DNA from: a virus
Virus record (IMG/VR): IMGVR_UViG_3300048091_000163
Span: 1 to 45,946 of that record
Direction: 5' to 3' (one strand)
DNA length: 45,946 bases
The notes under the pieces were generated by a model. It searched no databases. It saw only the letters and a program-made list of their open reading frames with translations, and was not told the origin of the DNA. Below are positions 41-45,938 of this stretch, in pieces. Position 1 is the stretch's first letter, and every line of letters begins with the position of its first letter. A program made the translations under genes and the position numbers.

Positions 41-1138
41 TCATGCTGCTTTTGATGTGGTTTTTGCCAGGATCTTAAGCCACGGCCACCCCTTGTATTT
101 GTCGCCGCTCTGGCGAATGTGCGTGTACCTCTTGAGCGATTCCCAGGAGCGGTGACCGGAGACGGTTGCCGCTTGCGGGATTGAGCGGCCCATTTCGAAA
201 AGCCGCGACACGCCGTCGTGACGCAAGTCATGGAAACGCAAACCCTTGATATCGAGAACCTTGCACATGAGCGTAAAGCTCTTGCTGATGGCGTTCGGAT
301 CATATGGAAAATAGCGGCCATTTGTCAGCGGCATTGAATCGAGGATGGCAAGCGCCTGGGGCGGCATATCGCACCACGTATCATTGCCGATCTTTTCGCC
401 TGGGTGCTTCATGTCTCGGACCAAAACGCGGCTGTGCCTATGATCGACGTCACCCGGCGCGATATTGCAAATCTCTTCTTGTCGGCGTGTGCTGAATATG
501 GCGAACGCGATTATTTTCTGCATTGGCATTTGATCGGGTCGGCGGGCCGAACGCTCGCCGTAAGCGGTCAAGATTCGGTCAAGCTCCTCCAGCGTGGGGC
601 GGCGGTCGCGCTTGTCGCTCTGCTTGATAATGCCAATTTTCCGCGCAACCTTCTGCGCGCCCAGTATCGTCGCCTCATCCAACTTGAAACCCCATGCTGG
701 CCCCGCGATGGCGAACACGGCCGACAGGTGCGATAGGTAAACGGCAACCGTCTGCGGCTTCCTGGTCTTCCCCAGGTCGGCCGCCAGGGCAATGATGTCC
801 TGGCTTGTGATGTCCTCGCACGCCTTCCCGGCAATGGCGAATGTCTTCAGCTTCAACAGGCAGTTTTTCTTAGACTTCCCTAGCTTCTTGACGCTTTCGA
901 GCATGTACTTATCGATTGCGTCGGCAAGCGTCTTTCGGTCGGCTCCAGCGCGCCCGATTTCCCCAGGCTTTGAAAGCTCCTCTTCACGCTCCGCGATCCA
1001 CGCCAGGGCGGCGGCCTTCTTGTCAAACGTCTTATTCTCACGGTGCGTTTGGCCGTTTCGCATGATCGAAACCTTAGCCAGGAACGCAATTGTTTTGTCC
1101 TTTCGAGGACGCTTAACGACGGTGCCCATTGATAACAT
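41..1138 (-). CDS. int: Tyrosine-family site-specific integrase
   Basis: Phage integrase that would insert and excise the genome at att sites by strand exchange through a 3'-phosphotyrosine intermediate. The C-terminal catalytic domain shows the family signature in order: Arg218 in STRR, the box H303-D-L-R306, H329 in SGHRSW, and nucleophile Tyr338 in KRYTHI. The N-terminal half (about residues 1-165) fits an arm-binding plus core-binding (SAM-like) domain. Length 365 residues is normal. A second in-frame ATG three codons in (base 1129) lies about 9 bases after an AGGT and may be the true start. It is alone in its transcription unit, with a predicted promoter/operator just upstream. Its position at the window edge suggests attP is near, but no att core was identified. 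Family assignment is firm. Confidence 0.95.
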   Translation of the reverse strand: MLSMGTVVKRPRKDKTIAFLAKVSIMRNGQTHRENKTFDKKAAALAWIAEREEELSKPGEIGRAGADRKTLADAIDKYMLESVKKLGKSKKNCLLKLKTFAIAGKACEDITSQDIIALAADLGKTRKPQTVAVYLSHLSAVFAIAGPAWGFKLDEATILGAQKVARKIGIIKQSDKRDRRPTLEELDRILTAYGERSARRPDQMPMQKIIAFAIFSTRRQEEICNIAPGDVDHRHSRVLVRDMKHPGEKIGNDTWCDMPPQALAILDSMPLTNGRYFPYDPNAISKSFTLMCKVLDIKGLRFHDLRHDGVSRLFEMGRSIPQAATVSGHRSWESLKRYTHIRQSGDKYKGWPWLKILAKTTSKAA

Positions 1139-4739: not shown

Positions 4740-6257
4740 CTAGAAGGGGTAGATGTCGCACCATCCAAAGTAATTTGGCTTGGCTCCTGCCGCCTCGTCT
4801 GCCGCCACTGCGGCTTTGTTGCGCTCCAGGAACATGCCCACAAGTCTGCCGGGGCCTTCCTGCTCGCGCTCTGCCCTGTACGCTTCAGCTTCCGCCCTGG
4901 TGCTGAAATCAGCGTCAACCATGCGCTCACCTCCATGGCCGTCAGCCTCGCGGCCGGTCACGGTGAAAACCGGGTTCGCGCCACCCTTCGCGATTGGGTG
5001 CACTGTGGTACGTGTCGAGCGCGATACGGGCGGCGCTGGCAAGCGTTCGGTTTGCTCAAGGCTCAACGAAAGCGCGGCGTTTTCCAGCTTCAGGCGCTCG
5101 TTCTCGGCCCTAAGCTCGGCGTTCTCGACTTCAAGCCGTTCGATCCGTGCACCTCGGCGTAGCTCCCGGTGGTAGTGGGCGATTGACGGCGCTGCGGCGG
5201 GCTCGGCAGCAAGTCCGCGCTTTACTGCTTCGCGCTCGGCGATGGCAATCCAATGGGCGTCCGTCAACCCTTCCCAGGCTCCAGTTTCCGCAAGCTTGAT
5301 GTTGTCGCCATACTGCTCGATGCGGCGTCCGTCATACTCTACGAGAACTTCGCCCTGGGTGGCGCTGAAGCGCTTGCGGGTAATCTTCACCTTCGCGGCG
5401 TCGAATGGCTCGACCTGGGCGGCTTTCTCGGCGGCAAGCTCGGCCGCGTGGTCGGGATACATCGCGGCGTAGGCCTCGGCGCGGCGCTTGCGGAAGATCT
5501 CGCGGCGGCCGCTCGCGTCCTTGATGCCGCTGCCTACCGTCCAGTTAGCCGCGTCGATGTCCTCGGCAACGTCAGCCGGAATGTCCAGGTTGTTCCAAAG
5601 CGGAACGCCTGGGCGCTTGGTAGCTTCCAGCGTCCAGAATGCAATATCATCGGAGGCGCTCATGTCGCGCGCCTGGGCGGCTTCCTGGGTGGCAACGTCG
5701 GCAGGCACGTCACGAATGCGGATGATAGCAAGGGCTGTCGCTTCGGCAAGGAAGCCCTCCTCGTCGCGCACAATCCAGTTTCCGGAGTTCGCTTCAATAT
5801 AGCAGTGCTGTACGCGCTCGGTTTCGAGCCATTCGAGCATGCCGGTGATGTCAGCGCCAAAGCGGTCCTTTGCTGCGAAAACGATAGAGGCGGCCTTCTT
5901 CTCGACGCGCTCTGCGCGCGCTTCCGGCGCTTCTACCGTCTGCCAGATCCAGTTTTCGGCCGGGTGCTTGGCGACGTTGGCGCGATTATTCAGGAATTTG
6001 ATGCCATAGACGCGCTCGGCGGCGGCGCGGAGATCCGCCAGCTTGTCGCCCTGGTCGCGGTGAAGCAGCGGCGAAACCTGCTGCGCGCGGCTTTCGTCAC
6101 CGGCTGGACGCATGTAGACGGCCCAGCCATCGGCGGCGCTGCCTGCAATAAAGAGATAAGCTTTATTCACGAGCACGTCGCGGATTGCCACAACCTTGCC
6201 TTCGCGCTTGACGTGGGTCGGCCAGAAAATGTTGCGGCGTGGGTTCTTAGAGGCCAT
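4740..6257 (-). CDS. Unknown 505-aa protein with coiled coil
   Basis: Function not recognised. It is the largest leftward product and has its own promoter with two operators, so it is early and repressor-controlled. The region 1-130 is mixed alpha/beta. Around residues 380-415 there is a short leucine-zipper-like coiled coil (RIERLEVENAELRAEN then RLKLENAALSLS), suggesting oligomerisation. The last 80 residues include ADFSTRAEAEAYRAERE and end in a Trp/Tyr-rich tail (YFGWCDIYPF). It has no enzyme motif, signal peptide or membrane segment. A long open frame also exists on the opposite strand; it is treated as an overlap artefact. Confidence 0.75.
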   Translation of the reverse strand: MASKNPRRNIFWPTHVKREGKVVAIRDVLVNKAYLFIAGSAADGWAVYMRPAGDESRAQQVSPLLHRDQGDKLADLRAAAERVYGIKFLNNRANVAKHPAENWIWQTVEAPEARAERVEKKAASIVFAAKDRFGADITGMLEWLETERVQHCYIEANSGNWIVRDEEGFLAEATALAIIRIRDVPADVATQEAAQARDMSASDDIAFWTLEATKRPGVPLWNNLDIPADVAEDIDAANWTVGSGIKDASGRREIFRKRRAEAYAAMYPDHAAELAAEKAAQVEPFDAAKVKITRKRFSATQGEVLVEYDGRRIEQYGDNIKLAETGAWEGLTDAHWIAIAEREAVKRGLAAEPAAAPSIAHYHRELRRGARIERLEVENAELRAENERLKLENAALSLSLEQTERLPAPPVSRSTRTTVHPIAKGGANPVFTVTGREADGHGGERMVDADFSTRAEAEAYRAEREQEGPGRLVGMFLERNKAAVAADEAAGAKPNYFGWCDIYPF

Positions 6258-6276
6258 TGCGATAATCTCCAGTTAC

Positions 6277-6341
6277 TGTTGTGTTATTCGCACCATACGC
6301 GGCTCGAAATTTTGTGTCAACAGCGTGTTGTGACTTTCGCA
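6277..6341 (-). promoter_or_regulatory. Promoter of the 505-aa gene with two flanking operators
   Basis: Leftward promoter: -35 TTGACA (6315-6320), 17-bp spacer, -10 TATGGT (6292-6297). Operator-like 16-mers lie on both sides: 6277-6292 (minus-strand TGCGAATAACACAACA, touching the -10) and 6326-6341 (TGCGAAAGTCACAACA, just upstream of the -35). The geometry is the same as at the promoter near 4400, strong internal evidence that both are bound by one regulator. Confidence 0.7.
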
Positions 6342-6344
6342 TTG

Positions 6345-6373
6345 AAAAGGGCGGCTCGATTGCTCGGCCGCCC
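6345..6373 (-). terminator. Terminator of the exported-protein unit
   Basis: Read leftward: GGGCGGC / GCCGCCC stem with an 11-base loop, then TTTT. It lies 22 bases after the stop of the exported-protein gene and directly before the next promoter's upstream operator. Confidence 0.75.
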
Positions 6374-6395
6374 TGGGTTTTGTGTCTTGCTTAGA

Positions 6396-6722
6396 TTACT
6401 GCCGGGTACACTCTTTGATGTCGTCGGCGGGGCGCTTCATCGTATCGGGGCCACGGTAAGCGATGAAGCCGAAACGGGCGGCCTCACCCGGCAAGGTGCG
6501 AGCGCTCGGGCTCGGCTGCATTCTCAGATCGACGCGCTGGACGGTCGCCGGGGCTTCCGGTGCGACGACATGCGCCACGGTGTGGCTTGCGAGCGACTGC
6601 GAAACGATCACGTCGGGCGACACGATCACACTGAACGCCAGCGCGCTCGACGGTGCCGCAATCATCGCCAGCGCGGCCGCCGCCATGCCAACGAATGCAA
6701 GTCCAATTCGTTTGATGCTCAT
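6396..6722 (-). CDS. Exported protein with Sec signal peptide (108 aa)
   Basis: The N-terminus MSIKRIGLAFVGMAAAALAM has a basic n-region and hydrophobic core, and the following residues end in a small-residue site (SSALA-F) near residue 29, predicting cleavage and export to the periplasm. The mature part is about 80 residues, rich in Val, Ala and Pro, with a single Cys near the C-terminus (ECTRQ) and no lipobox. A good ribosome site (AAGGAAAG) precedes the ATG. Its repressor-controlled early position argues against a structural role. It may alter the host envelope during infection. No family was recognised. Confidence 0.65.
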   Translation of the reverse strand: MSIKRIGLAFVGMAAAALAMIAAPSSALAFSVIVSPDVIVSQSLASHTVAHVVAPEAPATVQRVDLRMQPSPSARTLPGEAARFGFIAYRGPDTMKRPADDIKECTRQ

Positions 6723-6804
6723 TTTCCGCTTTCCTTCTGTTGGCGGTTTTTTTGGTTTGCCTGCCCTTTATCGGGCAAGACAGTTGTCGCCAAATATCAG
6801 CGGC

Positions 6805-7029
6805 TCAGAAGCGCATCCGGTTTACCATAATCGCCCAGGTAAACGGCCCTTTATCAGGTGTCGGGATTGCCTCAGTCCTCCAGGCTGAAGAGCAAACTGC
6901 CTCTTCCTGCCCTATAGCCTCGCGCCATGCCTTCGTTTCCGTAGGCCGTATTTCAAACCGCTCTCCAGGCTCCATTGTGCGGAGCCTAGCGCGGCGTTCA
7001 TTCAACGTGTCGTTTAGTTCTTCGATCAT
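6805..7029 (-). CDS. Small hypothetical protein (74 aa)
   Basis: Starts at MIEELNDTLNERRARL, with the ATG two bases after the stop of the upstream microprotein (TGATATG), implying coupled translation; an upstream TTG start is also open. The N-terminal half is a charged helix. The rest (GERFEIRPTETKAWREA... and TWAIMVNRMRF) is short and unassigned. It lies in the leftward unit with the exported protein. Confidence 0.5.
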   Translation of the reverse strand: MIEELNDTLNERRARLRTMEPGERFEIRPTETKAWREAIGQEEAVCSSAWRTEAIPTPDKGPFTWAIMVNRMRF

Positions 7030-15644: not shown

Positions 15645-17285
15645 ATGGCAACCCTCTATAATCAGTCTCGCGCTCTCGGCGTGGTTCTCGTGCCTGATGG
15701 CACGCGCCTCTATAACAATCAGCCCGTAATCGGCATTCGCGACGTAGGCGCGGCGACGCTGTTCGCCAATAATCGGCGCGTGTTTCAGGCTGACGTGCAG
15801 CCGAACGGCGCGAAGCTCTACAATGATCAGCAAGTTATCGGCGCGGTCCTCATCACTGACGGACGCGTGCTTTACAATGACCAGCTTGTCACGCCTGCCA
15901 ACGTGCAGGGCCTCGCCGTGCCTCTTCCTGCTCTACCTCTTGCGGCAGGCGCAAAGGTCATGGGCCTTGGACATAGCTTCATTGGGCTCGGAACCGCGCA
16001 AACCTACAGCGCGGGGCAGACGGCGACAAATGGCCATACCGGTTTCTATGAGAACGGCCGTACTGTACTCTCCTGGATCAAGGCCGCTGACGGCCGCTTC
16101 AACATCGACATGTTCGCCGAGTTGAACAGTCCATTTTTCGCGCCGAGTTCCTTTGCCGCCTTCTCGGGCGCGATGGGCGGGAAATCGGGCGACTGCCTAT
16201 TCCCCGTTCCTGGCCTGGAAGCGCAGTACCCCGGCACTCTGGCGCGCACGGCCTATGCCCTTAGCCAGAAGCCGGACATTGTCTATATCGACATCGGCTA
16301 CAACGATATCGTCCGCAATAGGACGCTTGCGGCCATCATTGCAGATTTTGACGCTCAAGTGCAGCGCATCGTTGATGCCGGTGTCTACGTCATTCTGCAA
16401 ACTTTGAGTTGGACCAACACGCTCGATGACCAGCCGGGCGTTGATGATCCGGCATGGCCCGGCATACTCGACGGCATCAATACGTGGATCCTTGCGCAGG
16501 CGGGACGCAGCGGCGTCCTGCTCTGCAACACGCTTTCGCTCGATGGACCAGCCTCGGGCATCTCGCCGACCATGTTTGTCGATGGGCTTCACCCCAAGCC
16601 GGACCTGATGGCGAAGCGCTCCGATATTCTGCTGCCGATCCTGCAGGGAATGGTCTCAGCAGGCGAAACGAGGTCGCTCGATCCGCTTGCCGCCTACAAC
16701 ATCTTCCCGCCCAAGGGCACGCCGGGGATCGCAGGCATCAAGACCAATGTGACCGGCGATGTTGCCACCGGCATGCGCCTTGTTCGAGGAACAGGCACTT
16801 CGACTTATGTCGCCAGCAAGGAAGTGGTGGCGACCGGCAACGAAAAGCAGGTCGTCACGATCACGCCTGTCAACGACGCGGCTGCCGTTCATACCGTGAC
16901 CTATGGCCTGCCAGCCAATCTCAGCCTTGCAGCGCTGGGCCTTGTCGCTGGCGACTGGCTCGAAATCGAAATCCCGGTCCAGCTAAATGATTGGGCGGGA
17001 TGGGATTACCTCGATAGCTCAATCCGTGGACCCGTCCAGATCGGCAACACGGTAACCGTGACAGGCGGTGGCTGGACTACGGGCAACTACATCGGCGGCC
17101 GCAACCGCTCGCTTATCTGCGGCTCTAAGCTTTGGCTTCCGCCTGGGTTGACTATGACAAACATCCGGCTCGATAACCTACTGGTACTGCGACACCTATG
17201 CAATACGGGAGGGACCGGGGTTGCGAAGATAGGAGCGCCGATCATTCGCAAGATCGCGGACCCCCGCGCGGCCTGGAACCTGTAA
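15645..17285 (+). CDS. SGNH/GDSL-type esterase with N-terminal repeats
   Basis: Residues 1-90 hold four degenerate repeats around a motif like DG..LYNnQxVIG (LYNNQPVIG, LFANNRRVF, LYNDQQVIG, LYNDQLVT), perhaps a virion-attachment domain. From about residue 105 is an SGNH hydrolase: GLGHSFIG (Ser nucleophile; His replaces the usual Asp of GDS), IGYNDI (GxND block) and DGLHPK (Asp-x-x-His). The C-terminal third is beta-rich. Such enzymes remove acyl groups from polysaccharide. It sits between head and tail genes, in the late operon, so it is probably carried on the particle to deacetylate a host surface polymer. Substrate unknown. Confidence 0.8.
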   Translation: MATLYNQSRALGVVLVPDGTRLYNNQPVIGIRDVGAATLFANNRRVFQADVQPNGAKLYNDQQVIGAVLITDGRVLYNDQLVTPANVQGLAVPLPALPLAAGAKVMGLGHSFIGLGTAQTYSAGQTATNGHTGFYENGRTVLSWIKAADGRFNIDMFAELNSPFFAPSSFAAFSGAMGGKSGDCLFPVPGLEAQYPGTLARTAYALSQKPDIVYIDIGYNDIVRNRTLAAIIADFDAQVQRIVDAGVYVILQTLSWTNTLDDQPGVDDPAWPGILDGINTWILAQAGRSGVLLCNTLSLDGPASGISPTMFVDGLHPKPDLMAKRSDILLPILQGMVSAGETRSLDPLAAYNIFPPKGTPGIAGIKTNVTGDVATGMRLVRGTGTSTYVASKEVVATGNEKQVVTITPVNDAAAVHTVTYGLPANLSLAALGLVAGDWLEIEIPVQLNDWAGWDYLDSSIRGPVQIGNTVTVTGGGWTTGNYIGGRNRSLICGSKLWLPPGLTMTNIRLDNLLVLRHLCNTGGTGVAKIGAPIIRKIADPRAAWNL

Positions 17286-37844: not shown

Positions 37845-38459
37845 TTATGGAACGATGGATAGAACCGGCGTCGCCGCCTCAAGCGCGACCGAAATGTGTT
37901 CTCCGTTTGGGAGCATGACGACGGATTCGCCCGTTTTCCTGGCGCGCTCTACAGTGCCGATGAAGCGCTTTCCTGTCGTTGTTGTGCAAACTGACAGAGT
38001 ATTAAGGGATTCCGCTTCTATGCTGTCACCGTCGCGCTGATACAAGATTACCGCGTCGTCAAGCGTCGCCAGTGGGCCGCTTTCCGCCCTTACCTGGATC
38101 GCTCCAAGTTTCCGATTGATGAGGCCCATGGTCATCATGGCCTTATCCATTATCCATTTCTGAAGCGACTGCGGTTCGATAAGCTCTATGCTCCCATCTT
38201 CTTTGACGACAGCCGAAAGCTGAATAGCCTCCTCCATCGCCGGGGCGACTTCAACGCCAGCATGCAACATGACTTCAGAAACCGGAACGGCAAGGAAGGC
38301 GGCAATACGGCTCACTTCCTCCATCTTCATGCGCCGTTCGCCGGAAACCATGCGGGACATTGCGGAAGGGTCAATTTTTAGATGCCGCGCAAGGCCACGC
38401 AACGACTTGTTGTTGCTGCGCAGCTTCTCCTGAAACCACTCACTATTTATTTGCGCCAT
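37845..38459 (-). CDS. CI-like phage repressor with XRE-type HTH
   Basis: 204 residues. HTH at about 9-58: FQEKLRSNNKSLRGLARHL, DPSAMSRMVSGERRM, and MEEVSRIAAFLAVPVSEVM, the XRE/CI family pattern. The C-terminal half (AIQVRAESGPLATLDDAVIL, TGKRFIGTVERARKTGE, SVVMLPNGEHIS) is beta-rich like the LexA/CI fold, but the Ser-Met motif and Lys of S24 self-cleavage are not clearly present. The start was chosen by GAGGGA 7 bases before the ATG. It faces a Cro-like gene across an operator region; it probably keeps lysogeny by binding the palindromes described here. Confidence 0.85.
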   Translation of the reverse strand: MAQINSEWFQEKLRSNNKSLRGLARHLKIDPSAMSRMVSGERRMKMEEVSRIAAFLAVPVSEVMLHAGVEVAPAMEEAIQLSAVVKEDGSIELIEPQSLQKWIMDKAMMTMGLINRKLGAIQVRAESGPLATLDDAVILYQRDGDSIEAESLNTLSVCTTTTGKRFIGTVERARKTGESVVMLPNGEHISVALEAATPVLSIVP

Positions 38460-38488
38460 TGTTAGTCCCTCATTTCTTGCAGTGGATC

Positions 38489-38645
38489 TGTTGCACAATT
38501 CACACCATGGAGCAAGACCCCGCACCGGTAAAGGCTAGGCATTCATTGTGAAACACGAATGTCAAACCGCGCTCAAAATTTGTGCCAAAATGGTGCGAAT
38601 ATCACGCCGCACCCCGTTGACGATGTGATAGCCGCAACATAGCCT
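38489..38645. promoter_or_regulatory. Immunity region: operators and divergent promoters
   Basis: Between repressor and Cro-like genes. Operator-like sequences at 38489-38507 (TGTTGCACAATTCACA...), 38594-38609 (TGCGAATATCACGCCG) and 38621-38636 (minus-strand TGCGGCTATCACATCG). A rightward promoter -35 TTGACG (38617-38622), 17-bp spacer, -10 TAGCCT (38640-38645) has the last operator in its spacer. An imperfect inverted repeat CATTC...GAATG (38540-38561) around TGTGAAACAC is also present. No clear leftward promoter for the repressor was fixed. The box TTGGCACAAATTTTG (rc of 38573-38587) echoes the left-arm promoters. Confidence 0.6.
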
Positions 38646-42049: not shown

Positions 42050-44617
42050 ATGGGAACTGATGTCGAGCGCATACGGCGCGACGTAACTTTGTCAGACGTG
42101 GTTTCCCGGTTCGGCTTCAAGCTGGTGAAGGACGGCGGCGAATATCTGGCTTGCTGCCCATTCCATTCTGAGAAGACCGAAAGCTTTTCGCTGTTTACCG
42201 GCGACGATGGCGTTGACCGCTATTTCTGTTTCGGCTGCGGCGCGAAAGGCGACGTGCTGGATTTCATCATGGGCGTGAAGGGCGTCAACCTGCCTGACGC
42301 TATCCGGATCGCGGACGGCGCTAACGCCATGATGCCGAACGCCGCGCCGCGCAAGATCGAGGCGCGCGACATTTACGCGGGGATTGTCCCGCTCGAAACA
42401 CAACCGGACATGAAGCCTGGGCGCGTCAAGCTCTACAATCCGAAGCGCAAGGGCGACCGCACGGAATGGGGCGGCTTCGTTCCGGCGTCGGTCCATCGCT
42501 ACTGCCGGGAAGACGGTTCGACATTCGGCTACGTGCTGCGCCACAATCTGCCAGACGGTGGCAAAGAAACGCCTATGGTCATGGGCGTCACCCTGCCCGA
42601 TGGTGCGCGGACTTGGTGCCGCTTCCCCTTCCCCAAGCCTCGGCCGCTCTATGGCCTGGAAGCGCTTGGCGACGGCGGGCAAGTGATCGTTGTCGAGGGC
42701 GAGAAATGCAAGGACGCGCTCGCCAGGGAGACGGGCCGAACGGTCGTTTCCTGGGCAGGTGGAACGCAGGGCGTCAAGCACACGGACTGGTCGCCGCTAT
42801 ACGGCCGCAATGTCATCATCTGGCCTGATAACGACGGTCCAGGCGTAGCGACGGCGCTGGAAATCAAGTCCATTCTTGACGGCAAAGGCGGCCGCGTTCG
42901 CTTTCTCGATGTCACGAATGGAAAAGAAGAGCGGCCGAAAGGTTGGGACTGTGCCGACGCCATTGCTGACGGATGGGTGAAGGCGGATCTTGATGCATTC
43001 ATGCGCGCGACCGTTACCGACGCCCCGCCCGCGCCATGGGCCGCGCCCGCTCCAGAGGCGGCCCAGGAGGAGCGGGAGCAAGAAATTGCGCCGATTGTCC
43101 AGGAGGAACCGGCGCGCGCTCCAGCGGCCGCCCCTGAAGACGATCTAGCGCCGCCCCCGGCAGTGGTCGAAGGCAAGCGCGGCGTCGCCGGGATGGCGGG
43201 TATCACGAAATTTTACCAGGATCTCGCCGTTTACGATCAACATCACATGGCGATGGATCTCGTGACATATGTGAGGGCGGCCACCAAAAGCCGCGTCATC
43301 TACGCTGAAGGCGAATTCTATGTTTACAACGGCAAGCATTGGGAAGTGCTGCCGCTCTATCTCGTAAAGAAAGCCGTTCTTCCGTTTAGCAACGTCGGCG
43401 TCGTCAACAAGCCTAAGACGGAGGTCACGGTGAATAGCAGCGACATCAACGGAACCGTTGCTGTTGCCCAGGTGCAAACGGCCGATCCTGAATACTTCAT
43501 GGACCCCACGATTGGCGCGAACACGTCCAACTGCACAATCACGCTCGATGAAGCGGGCGTTGCTACGGTTCGCGAGCATAGCGAAGACGATGCCTTTCGC
43601 TTCGCAATCGAGGCTCAATTTGATCCGGCCGCACCGGCTAAGCCCCATGCTGATACATATCTGCACAAGCTCCTTACGGGCTCATTCCTCGGCGACGAGG
43701 ACGCGGAAGAAAAAGCCTTGCTGCTTGGCGAGATCCTGGGCGCGGCCGTCTTCGGTCTGGCAACGCGCATCCGCCAGCCGAAAGCCTTCGTGTTCCTGGG
43801 TGAGACGGCAAGCAACGGCAAGTCAACGATTGCGGGGCTGATCTCCATCCTTCTGCCGAAAGGCGCGGTGTCCTCGATCTCGCCCGCGAACCTTTCGGAC
43901 GATGCCCGTATCATCAATCTCGCTGGCAAAGCCGCGAACGTCGCGGATGAAATCAGCGGGAACATTAATGGCGAGGCGTTCAAGCAGGCCGTTACCGGCG
44001 ATCCCATGGAAGGCCGCGACTTGTATAAGTCGGCCTTCACCTTCCGGCCTCGCGCCGTCCATGTCTTCACGACAAACCGCCTCCCGACGTTTGCGGGCGG
44101 CATGGATAGGGGTATTCAACGGCGAATGGTGGTCCTGAAATTCGAACGGACCATTCCCGATAATGAGGTTATCGCCGATATTCTGGAGCGGATTAAGCGC
44201 GACGAAATGGCGGCGCTCCTGGCCTTCGCTGTTGACGGCGCAATCCGGCTGAAGCGGAACGGGGCTTATACGGTTCCGAAGTCGTCGGCCCAGGCGCTGC
44301 AAGAATGGTTGCAAAGCGATCCGCTTGTTGAATGGTTTGAGCGCAATTGCGAGCGGACGGAAGCCCCGCCTATGGGCGGTTGGCATTCTGCTTCCGCGCT
44401 CTATAAGGACTTCAAGACATGGGCGACCGAAGAAGGCCACCGCGAAAGCTTCATTCTGTCCTTGCGCGAGTTTAGCGCGCGCCTCCAGACGCTCCCGGCC
44501 ATGCGGAAACAGCGCACCAACGCGGGCGTTATCTGGAAGGGTATCAAGCTGAAGACGGTCAAGGTTGACGACGGCAAGCGCAAAAGCCTGCTAGATGAAA
44601 TGGATGAAGTGTTCTAA
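42050..44617 (+). CDS. Primase-helicase (CHC2 zinc finger, Toprim, SF3 helicase)
   Basis: 855 residues. N-terminal CHC2-type zinc finger: CCPFH (Cys36, His39) and CFGC (Cys60, Cys63). Toprim: VIVVEGEKC (Glu216) and WPDNDGPG (Asp260, Asp262). A Pro/Ala/Glu linker at about 325-385 separates the D5/P4-type SF3 helicase: FLGETASNGKST Walker A (582-593), ADEISG and RAVHVFTTNRLPTF. It makes primers and unwinds the fork. With no phage polymerase, the host replisome must be recruited. GGGG precedes the ATG. Confidence 0.94.
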   Translation: MGTDVERIRRDVTLSDVVSRFGFKLVKDGGEYLACCPFHSEKTESFSLFTGDDGVDRYFCFGCGAKGDVLDFIMGVKGVNLPDAIRIADGANAMMPNAAPRKIEARDIYAGIVPLETQPDMKPGRVKLYNPKRKGDRTEWGGFVPASVHRYCREDGSTFGYVLRHNLPDGGKETPMVMGVTLPDGARTWCRFPFPKPRPLYGLEALGDGGQVIVVEGEKCKDALARETGRTVVSWAGGTQGVKHTDWSPLYGRNVIIWPDNDGPGVATALEIKSILDGKGGRVRFLDVTNGKEERPKGWDCADAIADGWVKADLDAFMRATVTDAPPAPWAAPAPEAAQEEREQEIAPIVQEEPARAPAAAPEDDLAPPPAVVEGKRGVAGMAGITKFYQDLAVYDQHHMAMDLVTYVRAATKSRVIYAEGEFYVYNGKHWEVLPLYLVKKAVLPFSNVGVVNKPKTEVTVNSSDINGTVAVAQVQTADPEYFMDPTIGANTSNCTITLDEAGVATVREHSEDDAFRFAIEAQFDPAAPAKPHADTYLHKLLTGSFLGDEDAEEKALLLGEILGAAVFGLATRIRQPKAFVFLGETASNGKSTIAGLISILLPKGAVSSISPANLSDDARIINLAGKAANVADEISGNINGEAFKQAVTGDPMEGRDLYKSAFTFRPRAVHVFTTNRLPTFAGGMDRGIQRRMVVLKFERTIPDNEVIADILERIKRDEMAALLAFAVDGAIRLKRNGAYTVPKSSAQALQEWLQSDPLVEWFERNCERTEAPPMGGWHSASALYKDFKTWATEEGHRESFILSLREFSARLQTLPAMRKQRTNAGVIWKGIKLKTVKVDDGKRKSLLDEMDEVF

Positions 44618-44623
44618 AAATAG

Positions 44624-44660
44624 AGAGGGCGCGAACGGCTCATTCCGTCGCGCCCTCTTG
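44624..44660 (+). terminator. Terminator after primase-helicase
   Basis: 11-bp stem AGAGGGCGCGA / TCGCGCCCTCT with 13-base loop, 7 bases after the stop. The T-run is short (TTGCT), so efficiency is uncertain. The following 140 bases to the acb2 stop hold only a 7-bp inverted repeat CGCTATC/GATAGCG near 44757-44782; no gene seen there. Confidence 0.7.
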
Positions 44661-44801
44661 CTATTCCAATTTCCCCAAATTCAGCAGCCGTTAATATGAC
44701 CTAACCAGATGATGCGGCGGCCGCCTCTCCCTTCGAAATCAATAAGGGGCATGTTTGCGCTATCTCATAGGAACCTGATAGCGAAGGAGTTCCGCGTCTG
44801 G

Positions 44802-45056
44802 TTATTCGGTAACGGGGTCTGTGGGGAGGCGTACGCGCGCCGGTTTGAAAATCGAGCGGTTGACGGCCATAAAGCCTTTCTCGATGTCAGTTCGGCCGAT
44901 GGCGAGCCAACGCTTATCGATTTCCGGGATCTGGCCCAGGGCGTCGAACAGGCGCAAGATTGATTCCTCTGCCTGCTTGTTTGCGTTCACGAGCGCAACG
45001 GTTGCTTCGTTCTGGTCGCGATATCCTGCGACCGGCAATCCTTTAATTTCCGTCAT
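44802..45056 (-). CDS. acb2: Acb2/Tad1-family cyclic nucleotide sponge (anti-CBASS/Thoeris)
   Basis: 84 residues. The C-terminal part IDKRWLAIGRTDIEKGFMAV followed by NRSIFKP matches the family signature (RW.aIG.T.lq.GfMal.RavaqP), and the N-terminal GYRDQNEATVALVNANK with a following long helix matches its opening. Members form hexamers that bind cyclic di- and trinucleotides (Acb2) or gcADPR-type signals (Tad1), blocking CBASS or Thoeris defence. An excellent AGGAG site 8 bases before the ATG fixes the start. It is a solitary leftward gene between primase and lysozyme, probably with its own promoter, which is not resolved. Confidence 0.87.
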   Translation of the reverse strand: MTEIKGLPVAGYRDQNEATVALVNANKQAEESILRLFDALGQIPEIDKRWLAIGRTDIEKGFMAVNRSIFKPARVRLPTDPVTE

Positions 45057-45073
45057 TGCTTCGGCTCCTGCCG

Positions 45074-45113
45074 GGTTGGTGTTTCTAATGCCAACCATCG
45101 GCGCGGATGGTTG
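45074..45113. other. Two mutually exclusive stem-loops between acb2 and lysozyme genes
   Basis: CCAACC (45091-45096) can pair with GGTTGG upstream (45074-45079) or, extended as CAACCATC (45092-45099), with GATGGTTG downstream (45106-45113). The two pairings exclude each other, as in attenuators. The second hairpin is followed by TTGTTTCGTT-like sequence in the direction of the lysozyme gene. Could also be a binding site for a dimeric protein. Confidence 0.4.
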
Positions 45114-45140: not shown

Positions 45141-45938
45141 ATGCTCAATAACTTCCCCGCCTGCTGGCGCATCACGTCCGCCTACGAAGGCGGCTATACC
45201 GCGAACAAAGCGGACCCTGGCAACTGGACTGGCGGCAAGGTTGGCGTCGGCGAACTGAAGGGAACCAATATGGGTATCTCGGCCGCCGCCTTCCCGAACC
45301 TCGATATCAAAAACCTGACGGCCGCCCAGGCCATGACGATCTACCAAAAGAAATATTGGGATGCAGTGCGCGGCGACGATCTTCCGGCCGGTCTGGATCT
45401 GGCAACCTGGGATTACGGCGTTAACTCCGGCCCTGGTCGCGCCGCTCGCGATCTCCAGGCCGTTGTTGGCGCTGGAGTTGATGGTAAGATCGGCGATCAA
45501 ACCGTTGCCAAGGCCAAGGCCGTCAACGGCGTCAAGGCAATCCAGGCGCTATGTGCGAAGCGTCTCGGCTACCTCCAGCACCTTGCTATCTGGAACACGT
45601 TCAAGGGCGGCTGGTCGGCGCGCGTGGCAAGCGTAGAGGCCAAGGCGGTCGCCATGTTCCTTGCCGCGTCGCCCTCCTCGACGCCCGAGACTGTCAAGGC
45701 CGCCCTCGCCCAGGAGGCAACCCAGGCGAACGGAAAGGCCGTGAGCGCACAGAGCGCGGCTGCTGCCGCCGCGACCACGGCGGCACCTGTGACGGCCGTC
45801 GCGGTTCAGTCTTCCCATGTCTGGTATTGGGTGGCGGCTGCGGCTGCGGCCGTCCTGGTCGGCGGCGCTATCCTGATCGAGCGGCACAAGCACGCCGCGC
45901 GCTCGGCCGCCTACGCTGAAGCGGCCGCAAATGTATAG
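45141..45938 (+). CDS. GH108-type lysozyme (N-acetylmuramidase) with C-terminal membrane helix
   Basis: 265 residues. Catalytic domain at 1-90 with EGGYTANKADPGNWTGG, the glycoside hydrolase 108 signature (Glu of EGGY catalytic), then ATWDYGVNSGPGRAARDLQ and VDGKIGDQTVAKAKA of a PG_binding_3 domain. After an Ala/Thr/Gln linker comes a hydrophobic helix YWVAAAAAAVLVGGAILI and a basic tail ERHKHAARSAA. The helix would anchor the enzyme to the inner membrane. AAAGGAAC is a good ribosome site. Lies far from the holin/spanin cassette in this linear map. Confidence 0.88.
   Translation: MLNNFPACWRITSAYEGGYTANKADPGNWTGGKVGVGELKGTNMGISAAAFPNLDIKNLTAAQAMTIYQKKYWDAVRGDDLPAGLDLATWDYGVNSGPGRAARDLQAVVGAGVDGKIGDQTVAKAKAVNGVKAIQALCAKRLGYLQHLAIWNTFKGGWSARVASVEAKAVAMFLAASPSSTPETVKAALAQEATQANGKAVSAQSAAAAAATTAAPVTAVAVQSSHVWYWVAAAAAAVLVGGAILIERHKHAARSAAYAEAAANV

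Follow-up and report, generated by a model that had tools for sequence, protein, structure and literature searches.

An optional gene for a probable Acb2-type cyclic-nucleotide sponge in BPP-1-like temperate podoviruses, and a candidate structured element beside it

Introduction

The closest described systems are the Acb2 sponges of the Pseudomonas phages PaP2 and PaMx33 (8h2j, 8h2x, 8ixz) and of phage T4 (Vs.4, 7uq2). Proteins of this family take up the signal molecules that bacteria produce on infection. In T4 Acb2, the Y8A change disrupts dinucleotide binding, and F82 stacks on the base (PMC12657218). The ligand range differs among Acb2 homologues (PMC12043709). Another sponge, Tad1, binds gcADPR and carries a sheet of four strands at its N-terminus (PMC12043709).

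The window analysed here is the whole stretch of 45,946 nucleotides of a viral record (IMGVR_UViG_3300048091_000163). In an original prediction, made from the letters alone, an Acb2/Tad1-type sponge acting against CBASS or Thoeris was proposed for a gene near its right end. The analysis below indicates that the gene product is very probably an Acb2-type cyclic-nucleotide sponge and an optional cargo of BPP-1-like podoviruses, as judged from its sequence and a predicted structure. By sequence it is a new member of the already known Acb2 family.

How does it compare with the described proteins? The helical hairpin is common to the window protein and to the Acb2 of PaP2/PaMx33, which gives the best fold match. 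Both have a GYRD element with equally spaced Y and K and a RWLAIGKTDI...MA stretch (RWLAIGRTD in the window protein). The PaMx33 acb2 gene runs into a bidirectional terminator, with a convergent gene opposite, and the gene in the window is likewise placed. On the other hand, the identity is about 32% over the alignment, the ~20-residue insert between the helices of PaP2/PaMx33 Acb2 is missing, F70 is replaced by A in PaMx33, and the window protein has an extra C-terminal RVRLPTDPVTE tail. T4 Acb2, at fold match ranks 6-8, is also 32% identical, but it has a longer inter-helix loop and lacks the LPxD tail. Among the homologues in alphaproteobacterial phages are those of RHph_X2_26, Brevundimonas phage Polewnik, RcapMu44 and Caulobacter phage Jess A (45-64% identity), with a similar tail and, except in Jess A, the same size. 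Their neighbours differ, being either replication genes or a head-tail operon, and the Jess A protein has an N-terminal extension.

Results and Discussion

The sponge gene and its phage

The gene and its surroundings in the window are as follows.

44802..45056, minus strand: probable acb2-type sponge gene, 84 aa (PF24729, E=8.2e-17; Acb2 fold match 8h2j/7uq2, ranks 1-8)
45065..45069, minus strand: AGGAG ribosome-binding site, 8 nt 5′ of the sponge ATG (from the sequence)
42050..44617, plus strand: primase/helicase, final gene of the replication operon and left neighbour of the sponge gene (phrog_6088, E=2e-63)
45141..45938, plus strand: endolysin, glycosyl hydrolase 108, right neighbour of the sponge gene (PF05838, E=2.8e-18; phrog_315)
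41..1138, minus strand: integrase, indicating a temperate lifestyle (phrog_1, E=3.7e-40)
37845..38525, minus strand: HTH repressor-like protein (phrog_4583, E=1.3e-6; weak Pfam HTH matches just below the cut-off)

Translation of 44802-45056 (minus strand) gives MTEIKGLPVAGYRDQNEATVALVNANKQAEESILRLFDALGQIPEIDKRWLAIGRTDIEKGFMAVNRSIFKPARVRLPTDPVTE, 84 aa, which contains both sequence features named in the original prediction, GYRD and RWLAIGRTD...GFMAVNRSI. The leftward orientation between the replication and lysozyme genes was also read correctly, with the primase/helicase gene on the left and the GH108 endolysin gene on the right, both on the plus strand, and so was the gene's own ribosome site. 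It was found that the Pfam profile PF24729 (Acb2/Tad1 hairpin) matches the protein with 61.6 bits, well above its cut-off of 27 (E=8.2e-17), which bears out the predicted family. A tblastn search with the protein found 86 phage records, the best being those of phages of Sinorhizobium, Brevundimonas, Rhodobacter and Caulobacter with 49-64% identity, and a search with an alignment as the query found relatives in at least 559 viral contigs. Thus, the ORF is not a chance frame. PHROG 717 (unknown function) matches the sponge with its C-terminal third. PADLOC gave no match for the sponge, which is expected of an anti-defence protein. Matches to TAL effectors (E ~3e-4) were set aside as repeat artefacts.

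The window also encodes a T7/BPP-1-type connector, tail tubular proteins, internal virion proteins and a 2367-aa protein, and its tail tubular protein B is 42% identical to that of Bordetella phage BPP-1 over the whole length. Since the connector, tail tubular and internal virion proteins occur together with integrase and HTH repressor-like genes, the phage is a temperate podovirus, as had been proposed. The genes for RecT and exonuclease VIII are on the left strand, like those for the integrase and the HTH repressor-like protein. The proposed alphaproteobacterial host is plausible from the relatives (phages of Rhizobium, Brevundimonas, Rhodobacter and Caulobacter), but the record names no host. 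Only four of 289 alphaproteobacterial genomes have a member of the sponge family over the cut-off.

Some other genes of the window may be mentioned. Past the integrase gene, two long opposite ORFs without a Pfam match overlap each other (4740-6257, minus strand, and 5253-6830, plus strand); a short part of the former matches phrog_23189. In the structural operon, a lipase/esterase-like protein (15645-17285, plus strand; phrog_6102, E=3e-12) is encoded downstream of the major head protein.

Fold and ligand pocket

A single chain was predicted with AlphaFold2 from an alignment of 67 sponge relatives. In the model (mean pLDDT 88.6), residues 17-41 and 48-70 form the two helices of a hairpin, and these long antiparallel helices resemble the Acb2 crystal structures, in agreement with the fold expected for the family. 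With Foldseek against the PDB, ranks 1-8 are all Acb2 (PaP2 8h2j and 8h2x, T4 7uq2; probability 1.00, TM 0.61-0.70), while unrelated helical proteins follow from rank 9 onward. The sequence profile of the 67 relatives found Acb2 of PaP2 (1.1e-11) and T4 Vs.4 (1.8e-7) in the PDB and no other chains at E<=0.1. Since both searches found Acb2 chains and no Tad1, the hairpin was assigned to the Acb2 side. The sponge is about 32-38% identical to characterised Acb2 proteins, and the solved structures have a longer hairpin.

In the alignment, Y8 and F82 of T4 Acb2 are kept as Y12 and F70 of the sponge. K27 aligns with lysine 26 of PaMx33 Acb2, which is probably a contact residue. Y12, K27 and F70 are each at least 90% conserved among the 67 relatives, and R49, W50 and T56 are conserved as well.

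Is the sponge then of the Tad1 type, or a dual one that traps gcADPR too and blocks Thoeris? This is very unlikely. Pfam PF24729 puts the hairpins of Acb2 and Tad1 in one family, to which the sponge belongs, and the homologue of Caulobacter phage Jess A has an extra N-terminal part of ~95 aa that recalls the Tad1 build. However, the sponge lacks an N-terminal beta domain: in the AlphaFold2 model, helix 1 begins after only ~16 residues, and there is no strand of three or more residues. Both the Tad1 sheet and similarity to solved Tad1 are missing, no Tad1 chain being among the PDB matches of the 67-relative profile. Membership of Tad1 was rejected on these two grounds. Of the original prediction, the Acb2 family and fold therefore stand, while the Tad1/Thoeris branch does not. 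In the Jess A locus (L025:4704-5270), the sponge hairpin is fused to the N-terminal part, and a sequence search with this homologue finds no Tad1 chain.

The C-terminal tail had been called unusual. It was revealed that R(V/I)xLPxD followed by a few residues is the C-terminal end in most of about 85 relatives, and nearly all of the close ones have the form RVxLPxD, so that such an ending is typical. In the alignment, the forms of Pseudomonas phages, jumbo phages and T4 lack the tail.

A cargo slot between the primase and endolysin genes

A relative of the primase is encoded in 15 viral contigs, most of which have the gene order helicase, SSB, endonuclease, primase, slot, endolysin and/or integrase. 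The slot carries a leftward sponge gene in L117 (= L033), L116 (= L084), L048 and L068, and a frame-broken one in L119. Seven relatives (L115, L118, L120, L122, L126, L127 and L129) have no sponge gene there. The last replication ORF and the endolysin gene are 229-258 nt apart in the empty slots (378 in L127), whereas the filled slot is 524 nt long in the window and 536 nt in L117. Because the slot is filled in five relatives and empty in seven at the same place, the sponge gene is an optional cargo at one fixed site, and the two states offer a natural comparison for sponge function. The last codon and the stop codon of the sponge gene (TTATTC on the plus strand) sit in DNA that looks alike in the empty site of L115. 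In L119 (6426-6854, minus strand), the frame is lost through a frameshift that follows ...VDKR, which may be decay or a sequencing error.

Where did the cargo come from? In the tree, the window sponge is nearest to that of L031 (91/93 support) and is grouped with copies of Mu phages. The L031 gene adjoins Mu gp36-like and tail-sheath-like genes, and neighbours of the Mu type surround the sponge gene in 47 of 87 relatives. From these sequence comparisons, it is likely that the sponge was exchanged between Mu-like phages and podoviruses. Forcing the five podovirus copies into one clade was not rejected (p-AU 0.40), so that one sponge gain or several would fit the tree.

Possible transcription signals

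Two inverted repeats lie near the sponge gene.

44624..44658, no strand assigned: GC-rich, terminator-like hairpin past the primase stop codon, loop CTCATT (from the sequence; loop shared by most relatives)
45092..45113, no strand assigned: palindrome CAACCATCGGCGCGGATGGTTG, 22 bp, between the divergent sponge and endolysin starts (unique in the window; conserved)

The primase and sponge genes converge on the CTCATT-loop hairpin, which the terminator scan did not list. Around the sponge gene, no sigma-70-like promoter was found. The palindrome, CAAC(C/T)AT...AT(G/A)GTTG, is kept just before the endolysin gene in the relatives, and its arms have compensatory changes there (e.g., CAACCTT...AAGGTTG). 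As it is conserved with the sponge gene present or absent, it probably serves the endolysin side. A recurring repressor operator was rejected, as the palindrome occurs once in the window and away from the repressor-like gene. The earlier statement that no operator lies at the sponge start is incomplete, given the conserved palindrome of 22 bp upstream of the start. The suggestion of permanent expression in the lysogen is unsupported. A review reports Acb2 action at induction rather than lysogenic maintenance (PMC12043709).

A structured element beside the primase gene

The slot holds a further feature, which is less expected than the sponge itself.

44662..44808, no strand assigned: candidate structured element (three-way junction and one hairpin), overlapping the sponge stop codon (model R1, 106.9 bits; covariation; no family match in Rfam)

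The element, ~140 nt in the stretch that separates the primase and sponge stop codons, is found in filled and empty slots alike (L115-L129, L048, L068). In the RNAalifold structure, which combines a three-way junction with another hairpin, 19 of the 29 pairs show double-sided compensatory changes. For the 24 pairs kept, 90.5% of cells pair, whereas shuffles reach 71.0 ± 1.6. Covariation is strong, with a score of 0.523 (0.171 ± 0.024 for shuffled alignments), and the signal is lost when the partners are slid by 1-3 columns. A covariance model finds the element in four held-out contigs (L048, 115 bits; L068, 111; L124, 64; L125, 66), in which the pairs are kept and further compensations occur. 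The element directly adjoins the sponge stop codon in L033, L048, L068 and L084, the exact abutment being partly by construction because the training sequences were trimmed at the junction motif. The window copy alone folds no better than its shuffles (z = 0.42). When looked for more widely, the element was confined to this podovirus group; 289 alphaproteobacterial genomes gave one weak match, and a 20-base pattern gave, among viral contigs, only three already known ones and two without a convincing model match.

These comparisons make the element a candidate for a new phage RNA or a structured origin. A structure at the DNA level, for instance an origin of replication next to the primase gene, is likewise a candidate, and the counts of G-U versus A-C favoured neither strand. 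As a candidate phage RNA, the covarying element is directly testable. It is tempting, but rather doubtful, to read the slot as an undescribed structured RNA alongside which the sponge gene was inserted. The sponge transcript would then end in this RNA and borrow its transcription signals, and a non-coding RNA locus would be where anti-defence cargo lands and is expressed.

Proposed mechanism

The 84-aa chain is predicted to fold into a helical hairpin and, like Acb2, may assemble into a hexamer. By analogy with the homologues, cyclic dinucleotides would be bound in a pocket of Y12, K27 and F70, and cyclic trinucleotides probably at the three-fold faces. The signal would be sequestered, not cut, and CBASS effectors would thereby stay silent while the phage infects or the prophage is induced. 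The gene, which has a ribosome site of its own, is an optional cargo placed leftward between the replication operon and the endolysin gene. This cargo may have been gained or lost several times in a family common to podoviruses and Mu-like phages. Panoptes systems are triggered by Acb2 (PMC12657218), and this cost could account for the absent or broken sponge gene in many relatives.

Could the hairpin instead be a structural or assembly protein whose nucleotide binding was lost or never there? Many relatives have a fixed position directly before the gp36-like gene in the head-tail operon of alphaproteobacterial Mu-like phages, between the major capsid and gp36 genes. PaMx33 Acb2, however, is likewise next to a structural gene, the podovirus sponge is dispensable, leftward and away from the structural genes, and the dinucleotide pocket is highly conserved, so this reading is improbable. 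It is hardly to be expected that the window copy is a decayed or inactive family member, for it is of full length with the invariant residues and a good ribosome site, in spite of the broken copy in L119 and the altered conserved positions of two chromosomal copies. The Acb2-type sponge remains the preferred reading, and a counter-defence gene of a temperate podovirus would thus be confirmed from sequence alone.

Relatives elsewhere

The Acb2 family has been recorded in 239 tailed phages (PMC12043709) and described as 'relatively rare' (PMC11722364). The viral contigs with a relative counted above, at least 559, suggest that these few hundred phages understate how common it is.

Chromosomal copies of Methylobacterium and Cypionkella (L002 and L003) are altered at near-invariant positions (V23 to G and R49 to P in L002; Y12 to C and N66 to D in L003) and are perhaps inactivated prophage genes. 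The sponge gene of Rhizobium phage RHph_X2_26 directly follows a gene (L022:7444-7983) that is annotated as encoding a TIR domain, but in which Pfam finds DUF1937/DUF4406 and no TIR. In Mu-like alphaproteobacterial loci (L027 RcapMu44, L024, L031 and many others), the sponge gene belongs to the head-tail operon and immediately precedes a gp36-like gene, and the RcapMu44 sponge already has the annotation 'similar to cyclic-nucleotide binding domain'.
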